DNA of 64,000 bases from Flavobacterium panacagri (lineage in GTDB: Bacteria; Bacteroidota; Bacteroidia; Flavobacteriales; Flavobacteriaceae). Below the pieces are notes generated by a model that worked only from the letters and a program-made list of their open reading frames with translations, made no database searches and had not been told where the DNA came from. Of the stretch, positions 6,933-64,000 are shown piece by piece. The translations under genes and the position numbers were made by a program. Numbering within the stretch: position 1 is the stretch's first letter; every line of letters starts with the position of its first letter. The stretch spans positions 4,588,001-4,652,000 of the forward strand of contig NZ_CP119766.1 of the NCBI RefSeq assembly GCF_030378165.1. Direction: 5' to 3'.

Positions 6933-7000
6933 ATTAAACATAATTGCTGATGGACTACAGCTGAAAATTGATTTATTCCTATAGCCTTTAGCATTTTTTT

Positions 7001-7084
7001 TAGCCCCGATAGCAGTGGAAATCCTTCTGCGCCGGGGTTCGGCGCTAAAGATTGAAACGCATAGCGGGAACAGCTCCCAAAAAA
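7001..7084 (+). repeat. AGCCCCGAT...AGCGGGAA element, copy 1
   Basis: An 84-bp segment starts TAGCCCCGATAGCAGTGG and ends GCATAGCGGGAACAGCTCCC. An internal hairpin GCGCCggggttcGGCGC sits in the middle. A second copy lies at 8416-8484 with the same ends and a different middle. I recognise this layout as common in Flavobacterium intergenic DNA. It may be a structured RNA or a REP-like repeat; its role is unknown. Confidence 0.6.
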
Positions 7085-53887: not shown

Positions 53888-55600
53888 ATGTCTGCCAAAA
53901 AAATATATTTTATTGTTTTACTCCTTCAAGCATTACTTATAAATGCTCAAAAACTGCAAATCAATTCCTCTAAAAATTATCTTCGAAATATTGAATCTAT
54001 TCTGCAGCAAGAAAAGAATTTCGAAACTGATACAATTGCTTTAAAAAATTATCTTAAGCCTTTAAATCAAATTCCAAAATACCAGGTTGTTTATCAAGGT
54101 TTATTAGCAAACGGGTTTAGCAACGCTTATAATTCGGTTAATAAAACTTCGGATTCATATTATCTAAATTCTATTCAGAAAGCCAAGGTATCGAAAAATG
54201 TTTCTTTAGAAATCTGGTCAAGACTCAATTACATTAATTACTTATATTATTATAGAGATTATATCAAGCTCACTCCTTTTCTACTAGAATTAATGGAGAA
54301 AATAGAGTCTTTGTCTGCACATCAAATTATAACTGCCGACGAAACTTATAAAAGAATTGGATGGATCTTGTACACTTTTGGGGATTATCATAAATCATTG
54401 CATTATTTAAAACTTGCAGAAAAAACAGCTGTAAAAAACACCTCCGTATATGCTTCGATTATGAACTCGATTGGAATGAACTATTTTAATATTGGAGATT
54501 ATAAAACGGCTAATTTCTATTTAAATGAAACAGCAAAGCTTTCCAAAAAAATTCAAGACGATGTGAGATATGCCAAAGTACTTGGCGATTTAGCTTTGAT
54601 TAATCAGAAAAAAGGTGATTATAAAAAAGCTATTACCTTATTAAAAGAAGATATTCAGATTTCAGAACATTATAAAAGTGATCAAAATACCATGTATGCT
54701 TCTATTTTATTAGCCGAAGTTTTGATAAAAGACAAACAGCTGGAAGAAGCTTTTACATTTTTAAATAAAGCAGAAAATATTGCTGTTTCTAAATCGTATT
54801 TTAAAAAATCTGAATTACAAATTATCAAATTGAAACTACAAATTCTAAAATTACAAGATTCAACAAAAAATGAACTGAATTTAAGAAGAAGAATGATCGT
54901 TATTGAAGATTTACTGCAAAATGAAGATGGTGATATTGCCATAAACAAAGCCAACTGGCTTATTGAAAAAGCAAAATACCAACAGAATATCGATACAGCA
55001 GAAAAAGCAATTAAATACGAAACAACTTTAAGATACTTTTATATCATCATCTTTACAATGCTATTTTCTGCAGTTCTTGTTGTATTTATTTATTTTAGAA
55101 AACAATATACAAGCAGGCATTTAAGTTACGAACAGAAAGTAAAATCTTTAGAATTAGAAAAGCTAAAGACAGAACAAAAATTATCCCAAGTTCATGAAGA
55201 TCTAAAATCTCAAATTAACTATCTAAAAGAGAAAAACATTCAGATCAAAAACCTTAAGCTAGCTATTGAAAATATCAAAAACTCTTCTTCGTCTTATATA
55301 GAAAAAAGAGAAAAAAAACTTAGTGCTTTATTGGAATCACATTTGATGACCGATAATAATTGGAACGCGTTTAGAAGAGAATTTCAGAAAGAATATCCTG
55401 AATTTTATGCACTTCTTCAAAAAGATTTTCCAGAGATAACAGATTCTAATAAACGAATTTTACTGCTTCAAAAACTCGATTTCAGCAATAACGAAATTGC
55501 AGAACTATTGGGTATTACAAACGATGCGGTAAAAAAATCTAAGCAACGTCTGAAGAAAAAACTGGGAGACAAATATGATTCACTTTTTAATCATATTTAG
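53888..55600 (+). CDS. TPR sensor with membrane helix and C-terminal HTH
   Basis: 570 residues. A signal peptide (1-20) is followed by about five tetratricopeptide repeats (150-320), e.g. Y-H-K-S-L-H-Y-L-K-L-A-E-K and Y-K-K-A-I-T-L-L-K-E-D. One membrane helix (about 382-403), a long coiled coil (410-475) and a LuxR-type HTH at the C-terminus follow, with F-S-N-N-E-I-A-E-L-L-G-I-T and V-K-K-S-K-Q-R-L-K-K-K-L-G. The topology puts the TPRs in the periplasm and the HTH inside. This is a common Bacteroidota one-component membrane regulator. It could control the iron/flavin genes 250 bp downstream. Confidence 0.88.
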   Translation: MSAKKIYFIVLLLQALLINAQKLQINSSKNYLRNIESILQQEKNFETDTIALKNYLKPLNQIPKYQVVYQGLLANGFSNAYNSVNKTSDSYYLNSIQKAKVSKNVSLEIWSRLNYINYLYYYRDYIKLTPFLLELMEKIESLSAHQIITADETYKRIGWILYTFGDYHKSLHYLKLAEKTAVKNTSVYASIMNSIGMNYFNIGDYKTANFYLNETAKLSKKIQDDVRYAKVLGDLALINQKKGDYKKAITLLKEDIQISEHYKSDQNTMYASILLAEVLIKDKQLEEAFTFLNKAENIAVSKSYFKKSELQIIKLKLQILKLQDSTKNELNLRRRMIVIEDLLQNEDGDIAINKANWLIEKAKYQQNIDTAEKAIKYETTLRYFYIIIFTMLFSAVLVVFIYFRKQYTSRHLSYEQKVKSLELEKLKTEQKLSQVHEDLKSQINYLKEKNIQIKNLKLAIENIKNSSSSYIEKREKKLSALLESHLMTDNNWNAFRREFQKEYPEFYALLQKDFPEITDSNKRILLLQKLDFSNNEIAELLGITNDAVKKSKQRLKKKLGDKYDSLFNHI

Positions 55601-57444: not shown

Positions 57445-57927
57445 ATGAAATCTATATTCAAAATTGCCCTAACAAGTGCTTTTATCCTTTTAGTTTCTTT
57501 TCAATCAAATGCGCAGTCTAGCAAATACAAATGCATGCTGCAGATGAACAACTATATGGGAGAAGGTGCTTATATCGTAGTTTCTTTAGTTAACGCAAAC
57601 GGAGAATACGAAAAAACACTTTATGTAATGGGCGATGACAAAAAATGGTACAAATCATTAAAAGAATGGAATAAATTCCACACTCAGAAAAATGATGATA
57701 TCAGTGCTAAAACAGGTGCTTCGGTTACTGGCGGAGACCGCAGTGTTACGACAATCGAAATCGAAAATTCTAAAATCAATAAAGGATACAAACTGCGTTT
57801 TGAATCGGCTGTAGAAGATCAGAAATACTATGTGAGCGATCTTGAAATTCCACTTACTACAGAAGGTATCGCTGAAAAAACAGACGGTAAAGGATACATT
57901 AAATACGTAAGATTAAACAAAATATAA
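57445..57927 (+). CDS. DUF2271-family exported protein with candidate flavinylation motif
   Basis: 160 residues with a signal peptide (1-23, ending S-N-A before Q-S-S). The DUF2271 fold is a small beta sandwich. D85-I-S-A-K-T90-G-A-S93 matches the [S/T]-G-A-[S/T] sequence preceded by Asp to which ApbE attaches FMN through the last Ser/Thr. The ApbE gene lies 2.4 kb downstream in the same set. Predicted role: periplasmic FMN-carrying electron carrier that takes electrons from the PepSY reductase. Family membership is seen; flavinylation is inferred from motif and context. Confidence 0.85.
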   Translation: MKSIFKIALTSAFILLVSFQSNAQSSKYKCMLQMNNYMGEGAYIVVSLVNANGEYEKTLYVMGDDKKWYKSLKEWNKFHTQKNDDISAKTGASVTGGDRSVTTIEIENSKINKGYKLRFESAVEDQKYYVSDLEIPLTTEGIAEKTDGKGYIKYVRLNKI

Positions 57928-57997
57928 AACTTTAGTATTTTACTTTTAACCTCTTGTTAAAGTATAAAGGCTACTTTTATACTTTAAGTAAAAATCC

Positions 57998-58032
57998 AAG
58001 CTTTGTCAAAGTTTCTAATTTTGACAAAGCTT
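57998..58032. terminator. Hairpin of the GCTTTGTCAAAG type, copy 2
   Basis: Arms AAGCTTTGTCAAA and TTTGACAAAGCTT round GTTTCTAAT. It sits between the DUF2271 stop and the reductase start (58065) and may partly terminate transcription there. Same sequence as the hairpin at 45472. Confidence 0.55.
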
Positions 58033-58064
58033 TAAACATTTAATTACATTCTAGAATACACGCA

Positions 58065-60248
58065 ATGACTCTTTCTTTCTGGCGTTACGCACATTTGGCT
58101 TTAGCCTTATTTTCTTCTATTTTTTTGCTTTTGGCTTCGGTAACAGGTATTATTTTGGCTGTTGATGCAGTACAGGAAAAAACACTTCCGTACAAAGCCG
58201 AAAATTTTAATAAAATAACATTGGAAGAAACGCTTCCAATTCTAAAAAAAGCCTATCCAGAAATTACAGAATTAAGTGTTGATTATAATCAATTTGTAAC
58301 GCTTCAGGCTATTGATGAAAATGGAAACGATGTTAACGCCTATATTGATCCCAAAACAGGTAAAGTTTTAGGAACTCCAGTAAAGAAAAGCGAATTCATT
58401 AAATGGATTACCAGTTTTCACCGTTCGTTGTTTCTTCATGAAGCAGGAAGGTTTTTTGTTGGTGTAATCTCATTTTGCTTACTGATGATTTCCCTTTCAG
58501 GATTTGTATTGGTATTGAAAAGACAACGCGGTATTCGCAACTTCTTTTCTAAAGTAGTTAAAGAATATTTTGCTCAATATTATCATGTTGTTTTAGGACG
58601 TTTGGCTCTAATCCCGATTTTGATTATTGCTTTAACGGGAACTTATTTGTCACTGGAAAGATTCAACTTTTTTATGGGTGAAGAAAAAGCAAAACCCGTT
58701 AAGACTGAACTTTCGGCGAAAGCCAAAACCACTTCGATCTTTAAAACCACTTTATTAGCTGACGTAAAGAAAATCGAATTTCCTTTTACAGATGATCCAG
58801 AAGAATATTATATCATTGAATTAAAAGACCGCGAAGTTGAAGTAAATCAGGTTACAGGTGCTATAATTAGTGAGAAGCTTTCGCCAATGACTGCTCAATA
58901 TGCTGCATTAAGCCTCGATTTACATACTGGAAGAATTAATGGAATTTGGGCTGTAATTTTAGCGATTGCCTGCATCAATATTTTGTTCTTTATTTATTCT
59001 GGTTTTGCGATTACTTTGAAAAGAAGGTCAAGCCGAATTAAAAATAAATTTAAAGCACACGAAAGCACTTTTATTCTTTTAGTTGGATCTGAAAACGGAA
59101 GTTCTTTTAGATTTGCCAATGCCATTTCGAAGCAATTAATTAGTCATGGACATAAAGTTTTTATAACCGAATTAAATCGTTTTGCCGCTTATCCAAAGGC
59201 AGAACATATTATTGTTTTTTCTTCGACTCATGGTTTGGGAGATGCGCCTTCTAACGGAAATAAATTCAAAGCATTACTGGAAAAGCAAAATCAGGAACAG
59301 CAAATCAATTTTTCTGTGGTTGGTTTTGGCTCTAAATCGTATCCAGATTTCTGCGGATTTGCTGTTGAAATTGACCAGCTTTTAGCCAAACAAAACTGGG
59401 CAGAACGTTATTTAGACTTGCAGACTGTAAACGACAAATCGGCTGTGGAGTTTGTAGAATGGGTAAAATTATGGAGCGCTAAAACTGGAATTCCGTTAGC
59501 GACAACTCCATCATTATACAATCATGTTCCAAAAGGATTAGACAAATTAATGGTTTTGGATAAAACACCAATTTCTGATACAGAACATACTTTTATATTG
59601 ACATTGCGTGCCAATTCAAGAACCAAATTTGCTTCTGGGGATTTATTAGCAATTTATCCTGCCAATGATTCTAGAGAACGCCTCTACTCTATTGGAAATC
59701 ATTCCGGCAACATTCAATTGGTTGTGAAATTGCATCCAAACGGGTTCGGTTCTGGATATTTGAATAATCTAGAGCCTGGAAATGTTATAAAAGCTAAAAT
59801 TTTAAAAAACCCTGCATTCCATCTTCCTAAAAAAGCACAAAAAGTAGCTTTAATCTCAAACGGAACTGGAATTGCTCCATTTTTAGGAATGATAGAACAG
59901 AATAAAGCAAAGAAAGAAATTCATTTATACAGTGGCTTCAGAATGATTACTCCTACTTTGATGGCGTATAAAAAATTTGCTGGAATCATGATTCAGAAAG
60001 AGCACTTGGAGCATTTTCATGTTGCTTTATCTCGAGAAGCAGAACATATTTATGTAATGGATTTGATTAAAAATGATGCTGTCTTTTTTATGAATTTATT
60101 AAAAAATGGCGGTGTTATTATGATCTGTGGTTCACTTGCCATGCAGAAAGATGTTGAAGTTATTTTGGATGAATTATGTTTGTCTAATGGAACAAAAACG
60201 CTTTTGGAATACAAAGAAAATGGTCAATTATTAACGGATTGTTATTAA
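58065..60248 (+). CDS. PepSY membrane reductase fused to flavodoxin and FNR domains
   Basis: 727 residues. The PepSY_TM part (1-320) has four membrane helices (about 11-34, 128-150, 178-197, 293-315). Histidines 119, 125, 174 and 287 lie near helix ends, possible haem ligands. Next come a flavodoxin-like domain (335-470, V-G-S-E-N-G-S-S and F-S-S-T-H-G-L-G-D) and an FNR-type module: FAD motif R-L-Y-S-I-G at 539-544, NAD(P) motif I-S-N-G-T-G-I-A-P-F at 597-606 and C-G-S at 688. It would carry electrons from cytosolic NAD(P)H across the inner membrane. Similar to siderophore/iron reductases. Confidence 0.92.
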   Translation: MTLSFWRYAHLALALFSSIFLLLASVTGIILAVDAVQEKTLPYKAENFNKITLEETLPILKKAYPEITELSVDYNQFVTLQAIDENGNDVNAYIDPKTGKVLGTPVKKSEFIKWITSFHRSLFLHEAGRFFVGVISFCLLMISLSGFVLVLKRQRGIRNFFSKVVKEYFAQYYHVVLGRLALIPILIIALTGTYLSLERFNFFMGEEKAKPVKTELSAKAKTTSIFKTTLLADVKKIEFPFTDDPEEYYIIELKDREVEVNQVTGAIISEKLSPMTAQYAALSLDLHTGRINGIWAVILAIACINILFFIYSGFAITLKRRSSRIKNKFKAHESTFILLVGSENGSSFRFANAISKQLISHGHKVFITELNRFAAYPKAEHIIVFSSTHGLGDAPSNGNKFKALLEKQNQEQQINFSVVGFGSKSYPDFCGFAVEIDQLLAKQNWAERYLDLQTVNDKSAVEFVEWVKLWSAKTGIPLATTPSLYNHVPKGLDKLMVLDKTPISDTEHTFILTLRANSRTKFASGDLLAIYPANDSRERLYSIGNHSGNIQLVVKLHPNGFGSGYLNNLEPGNVIKAKILKNPAFHLPKKAQKVALISNGTGIAPFLGMIEQNKAKKEIHLYSGFRMITPTLMAYKKFAGIMIQKEHLEHFHVALSREAEHIYVMDLIKNDAVFFMNLLKNGGVIMICGSLAMQKDVEVILDELCLSNGTKTLLEYKENGQLLTDCY

Positions 60249-60347
60249 GAAATTTTAAATTTCTGATTTTAGATTGCATGATGGAATTTAATTTTAGATT
60301 TAAATATTTTGCTTCATCAGAACGTTATTCAATTAAAAAATGATTTT

Positions 60348-61340
60348 ATGCAAAAATCAATTATATATAAACTTCTAATTTTTTTTGTAACACTTCAAAG
60401 TTTCTCATGCTATTCGCAAGTTTTACGAAAAAGAACAACACTTTTAATGGGCGGACGATTTGATATTAGTATCGTCGCAAAAGACTCGTTATCTGCTGAG
60501 CAAAATATCAATGAAGTCATTGCTGAAATTACTCGAATTGAAAATCTCATTTCAGATTGGAAACCTGATTCTCAAGTTTCCGAAGTGAATCAAAATGCTG
60601 GTGTAAAACCAATAAAAGTAGATCGCGAAGTTTTTGAATTAGCCCAAAGAGCCATAAAACTATCTAAAATTACCAATGGTGGATTTGATGTCAGCTTTGC
60701 CGCAATGGATAGAATCTGGAAATTTGACGGTTCAATGACCGAAATGCCTTCGGCGGAAGCCATAAAAAAGTCAGTGGAAAAAGTGGGTTACAAAAACATC
60801 ATTTTAGACAGTACAGCATCGACTATTTTCTTAAAACTTAAAGGAATGAAAATTGGTTTCGGCGCTTTAGGCGAAGGTTATGCAACTGATAAATGCCGCG
60901 CCATGATGATTCAAAAAGGAATTGAAGCTGGAATTATTAATGGTTCTGGCGATATGAGTACTTGGGGAAAACAGCCCAACGGAAACGATTGGAAAATCGG
61001 AATTACCAATCCGTTTAAACCTGAGAAAATTTTAGCGGCAATTCCATTAAAGGATGGCGCTATTACTACTTCTGGCAGTTATGAAAAGTTTGTTGTTTTT
61101 AATGGCAAACGTTATTCTCATATTATAAATCCCGCGACTGGATATCCTGCAACAGGTTTATGCAGTGTAACTGTTGTAGGCCCAAACGCCGAAACTGCCA
61201 ACGGATTAAGTACTTCGATGATGGTTTTAGGGCAAACCGAAGGATTATTATTACTTCAAAAATTCCCGCAATACAGCTGTGTTATGATTACAGATAAAGG
61301 AAAAGTAGTTAAGTCTAAAAACTTTGCTTATAAGTTGTAA
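60348..61340 (+). CDS. apbE: FAD:protein FMN transferase (ApbE), lipoprotein
   Basis: 330 residues from M-Q-K-S-I-I-Y-K-L-L. The lipobox S-F-S-C gives lipidation at C21, as in known ApbE lipoproteins of the periplasmic side of the inner membrane. Family blocks: G-A-L-G-E-G-Y-A-T-D (172-181), A-I-T-T-S-G-S-Y-E (238-246), H258-I-I-N-P-A-T-G and T-A-N-G-L-S-T-S-M-M-V-L-G at 283-295, where the usual metal-binding Asp of D-A-L is Asn. It transfers FMN from FAD to a Ser/Thr of exported proteins. The likely target is the DUF2271 protein in the same gene set. Confidence 0.94.
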   Translation: MQKSIIYKLLIFFVTLQSFSCYSQVLRKRTTLLMGGRFDISIVAKDSLSAEQNINEVIAEITRIENLISDWKPDSQVSEVNQNAGVKPIKVDREVFELAQRAIKLSKITNGGFDVSFAAMDRIWKFDGSMTEMPSAEAIKKSVEKVGYKNIILDSTASTIFLKLKGMKIGFGALGEGYATDKCRAMMIQKGIEAGIINGSGDMSTWGKQPNGNDWKIGITNPFKPEKILAAIPLKDGAITTSGSYEKFVVFNGKRYSHIINPATGYPATGLCSVTVVGPNAETANGLSTSMMVLGQTEGLLLLQKFPQYSCVMITDKGKVVKSKNFAYKL

Positions 61341-61622: not shown

Positions 61623-64000
61623 ATGAGAACAACTTTACTACTATTTTTATTTACCATTTCAGCTTGGTCACAAACCGGAAATCTAACAGGAAAAGTGACA
61701 TTTGGAACCAATGAATTAGCTTATGGTTCTTCAGTTATTATAAAAGGAACTCAGAAATATGCTATTGTAAATGATTTTGGTCGTTATGAATTTAAAGACT
61801 TAAAATATGGGGAGTATATCTTGGAGACTTCTTCTATGGAAGGCCAGACAAGAACTACAAAAGTAAACATCAACAAAGCGAATACAGAACTTAATATTTC
61901 TTTGGATCGAAATGGCCCTAAAGATTTAGAGGAAGTTGTAATCAAAAAATCTTCTATTAGAAAAGAAATAATGGAGAAAGGTTTTGCTGTGAATGTAATT
62001 GAAACACAGGAAGCAGCAAAAAGAAATCTTCAGACCAACGATTTATTAGATCGTTCAGGTGGTGTTAGAATCAGACAAAACGGAGGATTAGGTTCTGCTG
62101 TAACTTACAATATTAATGGAATGTCTGGAAATGCGATTAGAATTTTCATTGATGGAATTCCGATTCAAACTTACGGAGCTTCATTCAGTTTAAATAGTAT
62201 TCCGCCAGCTTTAATTGAAAGAATAGAAGTTTATAAGGGCGTTGTTCCAGCTTATCTGGCAGATGATTCATTGGGAGGAGCGATCAATGTGATTCTAAAA
62301 AAGGGATCTAAAAATATGATCGCTGCTTCGGTTTCTTACGGATCTTTTAATACTATTCAGTCTAATTTCAGTACAACTTATAGAGATAAATCTGGTTTTA
62401 CTGTTAAAGCAAACGGATTCCAAAATTATTCTGATAATGATTATGAAGTTTGGGGGCGATTTGTCTATAATATTGCACCAAACGGTCGTTACGAATACAT
62501 CCGAGCAAAAAGATTTGAAAGCATGTACCGTTCTTACGGAGGCAGACTTGAAGCAGGTTTTACTGATGTAAAATGGGCAGATAATTTCTCTATCAGTTAT
62601 AATGGTTCTGAAGACTTCAATCAGATTCAGCACGGTCAGTATATGACAAAACCATATAAAGGACGTTTTAGCGAATCTGCAGCCAATGTGTTTAGCTTAA
62701 ATTATAACAAAAAAGATTTCTTAATAAAGAAACTTGACTTCTCTATAATTTCTGTTTACAGTCATAGAAACGATGTTGTAAACGATACAGTTAAATGGAA
62801 TTACAATTGGAATGGAGAAAGAGCATTAGGCTTGTACGGTCAGCCTATTTTATCGGTAACCGGTGCTCAGCAGGGAGCTCCAACAATCAATCATCAAAAA
62901 TCGGATATTTTTAATACAAGAGCCGGATTTACTTATAACATTACCGAAAACCATAAAATCATTGCGAATGGAATGTTTTATACTGTAGATCGAAATGAAT
63001 TTGACGAAATGCAGCCAGAACTGGTTCGTAATTTTATGGCGACGCGTGATTTAAGTAAAACGGTATCTTCACTTGCTTATGAAATGCAGGCTTTTCAATC
63101 TCGTTTAAAAGGTAACTTTTTCCTTAAAAATTATAATTTAAAAACCGAGCAAATTACGCCAAGATTAGCTAATCAAAATGGTCAAAGCACATTGGTAGTT
63201 GAAACAACATCTAAAAATACCAATTTTACGGGTTATGGTTTTGCTGGTTCTTATGCCATTGTGCCAAAAGTACTACTAATGCTTTCTGCTGAAAAAGCAA
63301 TTCGACTGCCTTCTGAAAATGAAATATTTGGACTTCCAGGTGAAAACATTCTGAGTAATGCTAATTTAGGACCAGAGCAAAGTAACAATATCAATGCTGG
63401 CGTTAGACTTGGGCCTTACTTGATTAACAATCATAAATTCAATCTATATGGAAATGCTTTCTGGAGAAATACAGAAGATAAAATTGTTCGCCAAATAAGT
63501 GACCGTCTGAATGAAGCTGTTCAAGCTTCTCCATTTGTCAATTTAGGAAAAGCACAATCAGTAGGTTTTGAGGCTTCGGTTCAATATTCGTTTAAAGAAA
63601 AATTATTTGCTGGCGTCAACCTTTCTAAATTCAATTCACTTTACAAGGATAAATACGATAAAAACGGAAATATTCTTCCTTTATACAATAAACAATTACC
63701 AAATGAGCCTTATTTCACTGTAAACGGTAATCTGCAGTACAATTTTAAAAATGTAATTCAAAGCAAATCAGAATTGAATCTATATTACTATTGCGGTTAT
63801 GTGGCTCCATTTTATACTTCTTGGCTTGAAATTGACAGAACGACAGCTCAGTTTCCACAGGATTTAGGTCTAAGCTATGCTTTTCCTAATAAACAATTTG
63901 TAGTAAGCTTTGATGCTAAAAATATTTTTGACGAGCAGGTTTACGACAATTTCGCTGCCCAAAAACCAGGAAGAGCATTTTTCATCAAACTGAACTATGC
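61623..64000 (+). CDS. TonB-dependent outer-membrane receptor, 3' end cut by window edge
   Basis: At least 792 codons, open to the right edge. A signal peptide (1-16, ending A-W-S before Q-T-G) precedes a carboxypeptidase-regulatory-like beta domain (about 20-100), then a plug domain with N-D-L-L-D-R-S-G-G-V-R-I-R and the R-I-F-I-D-G-I-P and L-G-G-A-I-N-V-I motifs, then the beta-barrel. No SusD gene adjoins, so it is not a polysaccharide SusC. Its place after the reductase and ApbE genes suggests import of iron, haem or a siderophore. The substrate cannot be read. Confidence 0.93.
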   Translation, partial: MRTTLLLFLFTISAWSQTGNLTGKVTFGTNELAYGSSVIIKGTQKYAIVNDFGRYEFKDLKYGEYILETSSMEGQTRTTKVNINKANTELNISLDRNGPKDLEEVVIKKSSIRKEIMEKGFAVNVIETQEAAKRNLQTNDLLDRSGGVRIRQNGGLGSAVTYNINGMSGNAIRIFIDGIPIQTYGASFSLNSIPPALIERIEVYKGVVPAYLADDSLGGAINVILKKGSKNMIAASVSYGSFNTIQSNFSTTYRDKSGFTVKANGFQNYSDNDYEVWGRFVYNIAPNGRYEYIRAKRFESMYRSYGGRLEAGFTDVKWADNFSISYNGSEDFNQIQHGQYMTKPYKGRFSESAANVFSLNYNKKDFLIKKLDFSIISVYSHRNDVVNDTVKWNYNWNGERALGLYGQPILSVTGAQQGAPTINHQKSDIFNTRAGFTYNITENHKIIANGMFYTVDRNEFDEMQPELVRNFMATRDLSKTVSSLAYEMQAFQSRLKGNFFLKNYNLKTEQITPRLANQNGQSTLVVETTSKNTNFTGYGFAGSYAIVPKVLLMLSAEKAIRLPSENEIFGLPGENILSNANLGPEQSNNINAGVRLGPYLINNHKFNLYGNAFWRNTEDKIVRQISDRLNEAVQASPFVNLGKAQSVGFEASVQYSFKEKLFAGVNLSKFNSLYKDKYDKNGNILPLYNKQLPNEPYFTVNGNLQYNFKNVIQSKSELNLYYYCGYVAPFYTSWLEIDRTTAQFPQDLGLSYAFPNKQFVVSFDAKNIFDEQVYDNFAAQKPGRAFFIKLNY

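Follow-up and report, generated by a model that had tools for sequence, protein, structure and literature searches.

A Bacteroidota variant of the PepSY/DUF2271 flavinylation system with an exported ankyrin-repeat partner and changes in target motif and ApbE

We analysed a 64,000-nucleotide stretch of the Flavobacterium panacagri genome (NZ_CP119766.1, positions 4,588,001 to 4,652,000), here called the window, that carries the genes of a putative extracytosolic flavin electron-transfer system. Genes for an ankyrin-repeat protein, a DUF2271 protein, a fused PepSY-flavodoxin-FNR membrane protein, ApbE and a TonB-dependent receptor follow one another on the + strand, with a lipoprotein gene next, outside the window (Table 1). 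This same-strand set, including the upstream ankyrin gene, had been named in a first-pass annotation and is borne out by Pfam matches and coordinates. The receptor gene ends 16 bases past the window end, and the likely start of ApbE is the ATG at 60348, rather than the TTG at 60309 of the mechanically called open reading frame. A whole-genome search of the 5.98 Mb host genome found a single copy of DUF2271, three of ApbE and six of PepSY_TM.

Table 1. Genes and sequence features of the operon (positions in the window unless a locus is named)
Feature	Position	Strand or place	Basis or remark
Exported ankyrin-repeat protein, 498 aa	55848..57344	+	Pfam Ank_2 E 4.7e-50; signal peptide by eye; ankyrin solenoid model, mean pLDDT 87
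DUF2271 protein, putative flavin carrier, 160 aa	57445..57927	+	PF10029 E 3.4e-38
Putative flavinylation motif S87-A-K-T-G-A-S93 in DUF2271	57703..57723	+	Ser replaces conserved Asp
PepSY_TM-flavodoxin-FAD/NAD membrane protein, 727 aa	58065..60248	+	Pfam; four invariant His; FoxB profile match
ApbE FAD:protein FMN transferase, 330 aa from ATG	60348..61340	+	PF02424 E 6.9e-79; PDB matches; operon clade
Asn285 codon (AAC) of ApbE, place of catalytic-triad Asp	61200..61202	+	Alignment to FmnB 7esa
TonB-dependent receptor, cut by window end	61623..64000	+	Pfam Plug E 1e-16
XusB-like lipoprotein, 442 residues, beyond window	L002:12054-13382	Follows TonB receptor	XusB profile match

Systems of this kind have been described. 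ApbE attaches flavin to a DUF2271 protein in one species, and replacing the acceptor Thr by Ala abolishes this (Meheust et al. 2021, PMC8238504). The same survey found the [S/T]GA[S/T] motif in 282 proteins and 3220 PepSY-like flavinylation clusters, 2833 of them with DUF2271 and 231 with TonB; it counted an NAD-binding domain in 1077 PepSY-like genes and proposed iron reduction as the role of the clusters. A Caulobacter locus is under Fur control and its mutants are EDTA-sensitive (PMC11870441; PMC3751524), and iron limitation induces DUF2271 genes in Alteromonas (PMC7190382). In F. panacagri, PepSY_TM is likewise encoded with DUF2271 and ApbE, and the motif is present as T90-G-A-S93. We conclude that the operon represents a Bacteroidota version of the already described PepSY/DUF2271 system. 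The core idea, a PepSY/DUF2271/ApbE relay tied to iron, is already in print, and the finding as first stated is mostly rediscovery; what the variant adds is a conserved partner that is new and an unexpected, testable change in enzyme and target.

For comparison, PF10029 was searched in three sets: 149 genomes of Flavobacteriaceae, of which 48 passed the cut-off with 50 matches, 150 Flavobacterium genomes (50 passing) and 296 genomes from the phylum Bacteroidota (22 passing). We read 110 Bacteroidota DUF2271 loci, setting aside G174 and G253, genus matches that passed the cut-off but were weak, and everything below it. Counts use 109 loci (56 Flavobacterium and 53 others), with L076 omitted as an ApbE-DUF2271 fusion; two further fusions are G440 (locus L228, on which Pfam was run) and G479 (L229). 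A set of 80 named Flavobacterium loci overlaps the genus set. Outside Bacteroidota, 11 plasmid loci were taken from 45 matches listed among 268 and 97 matching records, and one of the 11, L322, which has no annotation, was counted for the ankyrin search alone. Structure models were made of single proteins (DUF2271 and the ankyrin protein).

The new partner is the ankyrin protein. Its gene adjoins that for DUF2271 in 103 of the 109 loci (56/56 in Flavobacterium and 47/53 in the others), the PepSY gene does so in 106, and because both adjoin it in 102 the association is not due to chance. Among the 149 Flavobacteriaceae genomes, the ankyrin protein (E 1e-30 or better; 44 genomes in total) occurs in 43 of the 48 with DUF2271 versus one of the 101 without; in that one, G015, what matched is a fragment lying at the end of a contig. 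All 80 named Flavobacterium loci have it. The closest named homologues are those of F. quisquiliarum (97%) and F. phragmitis (96%), and a Spirosoma plasmid locus encodes one at 54% identity. The partner had been called distinctive at the outset, and these counts make the case more strongly. A link between ankyrin proteins and DUF2271 systems was not found in the literature searched, where the word 'ankyrin' is absent from the main texts examined. The structure model is a solenoid with a low-confidence C-terminal stretch. The protein is probably a dedicated envelope partner, most likely a scaffold that docks the carrier, and it is the probable missing component of a widespread iron-reduction system.

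The target motif also departs from the published form. ApbE motifs are given as D-x-x-[S/T]-G-A-[S/T], with the first-position aspartate called strictly conserved (PMC12052999); here that residue is Ser87, and the Flavobacterium branch has S-A-K-T-G-A-S where relatives have D-A-I-T-G-A-T. The motif was initially read as D85-x-x-x-x-T90-G-A-S93, of which T90-G-A-S93 stands; D85 is not the motif aspartate, since the conserved column is residue 87. Residue 87 is Asp and residue 93 Thr in 47/49 Flavobacteriaceae loci each, both exceptions being Flavobacterium loci, and the motif Asp is absent in 57 of the 109 loci. None of the Flavobacterium loci read has this residue, for all that it has been called strictly conserved in flavinylation motifs. 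Sorted by acceptor residue and by apbE within the stretch read, the 109 loci comprise 57 with Ser and apbE, 49 with Thr and no apbE, three with Ser and no apbE, and none with Thr and apbE. Conservation of T-G-A-S in apbE-linked homologues had been proposed as a check, and the outcome does not refute the first interpretation: G-A-S is present in 57/57 of these, some of them having S for the first T, and in 60/60 Ser-type loci overall. Where apbE is nearby, it lies 2.2–4.3 kb from DUF2271. The three Ser-type loci without apbE are L095, a 3.6 kb contig, L150, which lies at a contig edge and keeps the Asp, and L101, where the absence is real and the same contig encodes an operon-clade ApbE (L214) at a distance of approximately 1.15 Mb. 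A Ser acceptor with the Asp kept was also found in L091 and L137. Thr and Asp are present in all 120 proteins of the DUF2271 profile listing, which covers its best matches only. A fold search with the DUF2271 model, in which the motif loop is of low confidence, returned no PDB match at E < 0.001.

The Ser acceptor in itself was rejected as a new feature, as six of eight proteobacterial plasmid homologues have D-x-x-[TS]-G-A-S; the remaining two have N-x-x-T-G-A-S and, in Methylobacterium, D-S-V-S-G-A-T. The rule that a local apbE goes with Ser was likewise rejected beyond Bacteroidota, as Methylobacterium combines Thr with a local apbE and A. ursilacus DUF2271 has a Thr acceptor and its own ApbE (PMC8238504). 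Separately, the DUF2271 genes of six Thr-type loci (L054, L059, L071, L073, L074 and L077) encode G-E-T, with Glu replacing the motif Ala, and three of them also lack a Ser or Thr before the Gly (A-G-E-T in L059, V-G-E-T in L071 and L077); flavinylation may be altered there.

The enzyme has changed too. The catalytic triad of ApbE is Asp-Ser-His (PMC12052999), and position 285 of the operon enzyme, counted from the ATG (298 in the TTG frame), aligns with D301 of FmnB (7esa; counted by hand). This position is Asn in 57/57 operon copies, in 78/78 named loci and in L214, and Asp in 46/48 other ApbEs. The triad Ser and His (Ser255 and His271) are kept in 57/57 operon copies. The operon enzymes placed in a tree (20 of the 57) form one clade with L214 (Shimodaira–Hasegawa-like approximate likelihood ratio support of 100, in a quick tree with long branches elsewhere). 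In nine pairs the ratio of non-synonymous to synonymous substitution rates (dN/dS) for apbE is 0.03–0.10, like that of its neighbours and with synonymous sites partly saturated, and apbE is under purifying selection. Outside Bacteroidota the Asp is kept in 8/8 enzymes, and the Spirosoma plasmid carries an Asn enzyme together with S-A-I-T-G-A-S. Neither the Asp-less motif nor the Asn enzyme was found in the literature searched, in which no search aimed at them was made. Because the substitution occurs naturally, the role of the triad Asp can be tested directly. The first-pass description of ApbE as a lipoprotein is unsupported, a loose lipobox pattern fitting just two of the 57 operon ApbEs, that of the window not among them.

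As a side observation, the three ApbE-DUF2271 fusions (L228:5781-7292, L229:6874-8391 and L076:8458-9981) have all lost the motif Asp; the motif Gly is also lost in two of them (L228 and L076), and Gly stands in place of the triad Asp in L228 and L229, the two that were tested.

With the motif Asp and the triad Asp both gone in a whole branch, these changes could mark a loss of flavinylation, the PepSY protein itself reducing ferric siderophore, in the manner proposed for FoxB, with DUF2271 serving for binding. The missing motif Gly of two of the three fusions read would fit such a loss. We regard it as improbable: the G-A-S core is kept in every Ser-type locus, apbE has the low dN/dS given above and retains Ser255 and His271, and changing the motif Asp to Ala had only a minor effect in one target, according to a review (PMC12052999).

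Thr-type loci have no apbE nearby (49/49), and ApbE is encoded elsewhere in the 28/28 such genomes tested. In seven ApbE contexts from these genomes, nqrC lies within the stretch in five (L220, L222, L224, L225 and L226); of the other two, L221 has ApbE beside DUF3570 and L223 shows no nqrC. In 12 of the 28 genomes there is a single ApbE, which groups in one clade with the nqr-adjacent enzymes. NqrC itself was present in 28/28 Thr-type and 0/20 Ser-type genomes tested, as well as in G541, whose motif is D-G-I-S-G-A-S. It is missing from only four of the 149 family genomes, two of which are Flavobacterium, and was found in 16/150 genomes of the Flavobacterium set (15 over the cut-off). Where a Flavobacterium genome has a strong DUF2271 match, NqrC is absent in 46 of 48, G153 and G173 being the two that have it. 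Relatives without a local apbE probably share the ApbE of the NQR complex. That this shared enzyme holds their motif to Asp and Thr is put forward as a hypothesis, since the PepSY tree (69 rows) needs only two changes. As a strict rule, that an operon with its own apbE excludes NQR was rejected: G153 and G173 have both, and G110 has NQR and an ApbE-DUF2271 fusion.

It is conceivable, though we hold it only tentatively, that enzyme and target form a private pair, in which the Asn ApbE would modify an Asp-less Ser motif that the NQR-type enzyme refuses, with the ankyrin solenoid docking the carrier to the membrane reductase. If true, a second pair for flavin tagging would exist in nature and exported ankyrin proteins would gain a new role; an enzyme and target that fit only each other would provide a ready-made second flavin tag. 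We lean slightly towards a plainer explanation, that the motif, the ApbE Asn and the local apbE are marks of one clade by descent, with no specificity, so that either ApbE would modify either motif. The Ser branch is one clade in the PepSY tree, with two changes in all, and a coupling test on independent pairs had two pairs and was not significant. L091 and L137 combine the motif Asp with an Asn enzyme, Asp enzymes occur with Asn in the motif (Rhizobium L316) or with Ser in the motif and the Gly lost (Deinococcus L319 and L320), and NqrC is present in two Ser-type genomes, G153 and G173. Descent alone sits less easily with the span of the clade, which covers families f1, f3 and f4 and the Spirosoma plasmid, each with an Asn enzyme and an Asp-less motif, with L101, which lacks a local apbE on a long enough contig and has a same-clade Asn enzyme elsewhere in its genome, or with fusions L228 and L229, which are likewise without both Asp residues, the enzyme having Gly. 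Because there has been essentially one evolutionary switch, with exceptions, the coupling of motif and enzyme is unproven.

In the PepSY part of the membrane protein, H10, H119, H174 and H287 are invariant in 16/16 aligned relatives and 45/45 members of the family set. A profile match to FoxB (7abw, E 7.5e-4) places H119 and H174 on FoxB histidines, H10 and H287 lying outside the match. This part had been described as tyrosine-free with a haem-ligand-like His set; the histidines are real, and there are 13 Tyr in the first 330 residues. Electrons from NAD(P)H would pass to flavin adenine dinucleotide (FAD) and flavin mononucleotide (FMN) in the 727-residue protein, cross the membrane via haems held by the four invariant histidines, and reach a covalent FMN at Ser93 of the DUF2271 carrier, where Fe(III) would be reduced. 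The ankyrin protein would act in the envelope as the docking scaffold, and the operon ApbE would be a lineage-specific enzyme for the carrier. The route proposed at the outset, by which NAD(P)H electrons would reach a metal or siderophore through the membrane protein and a covalent FMN on DUF2271, is that of the published PepSY/DUF2271 model and fits the anatomy here. We think it likely that the operon serves reductive iron acquisition by such a transmembrane flavin relay, with the DUF2271 carrier reducing Fe(III).

Here the iron probably comes from a siderophore imported by the adjacent TonB receptor and the lipoprotein. The latter has no Pfam match, and a 14-sequence profile built on it matches XusB of B. 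fragilis (9hqe, E 2.4e-6, profile positions 259–437 of 447), reported as a ferrichrome binder (PMC13142918). Such a lipoprotein, in the company of a TonB receptor and a PepSY protein, hints at (xeno)siderophore iron, for a minority of loci.

Several observations weigh against a siderophore-fed relay of this form. The XusB match leaves more than half of the profile uncovered. Only a minority of loci have a TonB receptor and a XusB-like gene close by, the XusB-like gene being near the triad in 24 of 110, some of which are cut by locus ends, and the acceptor may therefore differ. The Asn for Asp285 could weaken or end flavin transfer. No ankyrin match was found in the 11 proteobacterial and Deinococcus plasmid loci having DUF2271, so the ankyrin protein is unnecessary for the general mechanism. 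The same scarcity of receptor and XusB-like gene beside the triad would suit a relay that reduces something else, such as an oxidized envelope protein or another metal. We consider that unlikely, given the iron links in Caulobacter (PMC11870441), Alteromonas (PMC7190382) and the cluster survey (PMC8238504), and the siderophore-type receptor that also stands beside the Spirosoma locus.

Other features were noted in passing. A tetratricopeptide-repeat protein upstream (window 53888-55600, +), with a weak sigma-70 region 4-like C-terminus, was considered as a member of the system and set aside, as its gene adjoins the operon in just 7/80 named Flavobacterium loci. Promoter-like patterns numbered 4, against 0.66 in simple shuffles, two of the 4 lying inside genes, and were used for no operon claim. 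The sole Rfam match over threshold in the window is a Flavo-1 RNA (6998-7075, +; 68.8 bits). The other two ApbEs of the host genome lie one beside a DUF3570 protein and one beside RnfC- and RnfD-like proteins. The former (L210:7755-10556, near 4.53 Mb) stands between DUF3570 and a protein judged thioredoxin-like by eye, and the [ST]GA[ST] pattern was not found in its DUF3570 protein. The latter is very divergent in the tree and belongs to a cluster with RnfC-like, RnfD-like and nitroreductase genes (L211:5525-9459, near 3.90 Mb).

Among known systems, the operon most resembles the clusters of Meheust et al. and Caulobacter CCNA_03155-03159, with which it shares a DUF2271 substrate, ApbE, a PepSY_TM protein with flavin and NAD domains, a TonB receptor (in some) and the iron link. 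It differs from them in the ankyrin protein, in a motif without Asp and in the Asn of ApbE; in addition, Pfam reported no DUF4198 domain in the six window proteins scanned. Classical ApbEs (Vibrio cholerae ApbE and Listeria FmnB, 7esa) belong to the same fold family and have the triad Ser and His, but FmnB has Asp (D301) where the operon enzyme has Asn. FoxB, the ferrioxamine reductase of Pseudomonas aeruginosa (7abw), shares the PepSY transmembrane part by profile, with two aligned histidines; unlike the 727-residue protein here, its 382-residue chain has no fused flavodoxin-FNR part. In XusABC of Bacteroides (PMC13142918), too, a TonB receptor, a XusB-like lipoprotein and an inner-membrane protein of the PepSY kind are neighbours. 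Here, however, the lipoprotein match is partial, and the reductase is fused to flavodoxin-FNR and accompanied by DUF2271, ApbE and the ankyrin protein.

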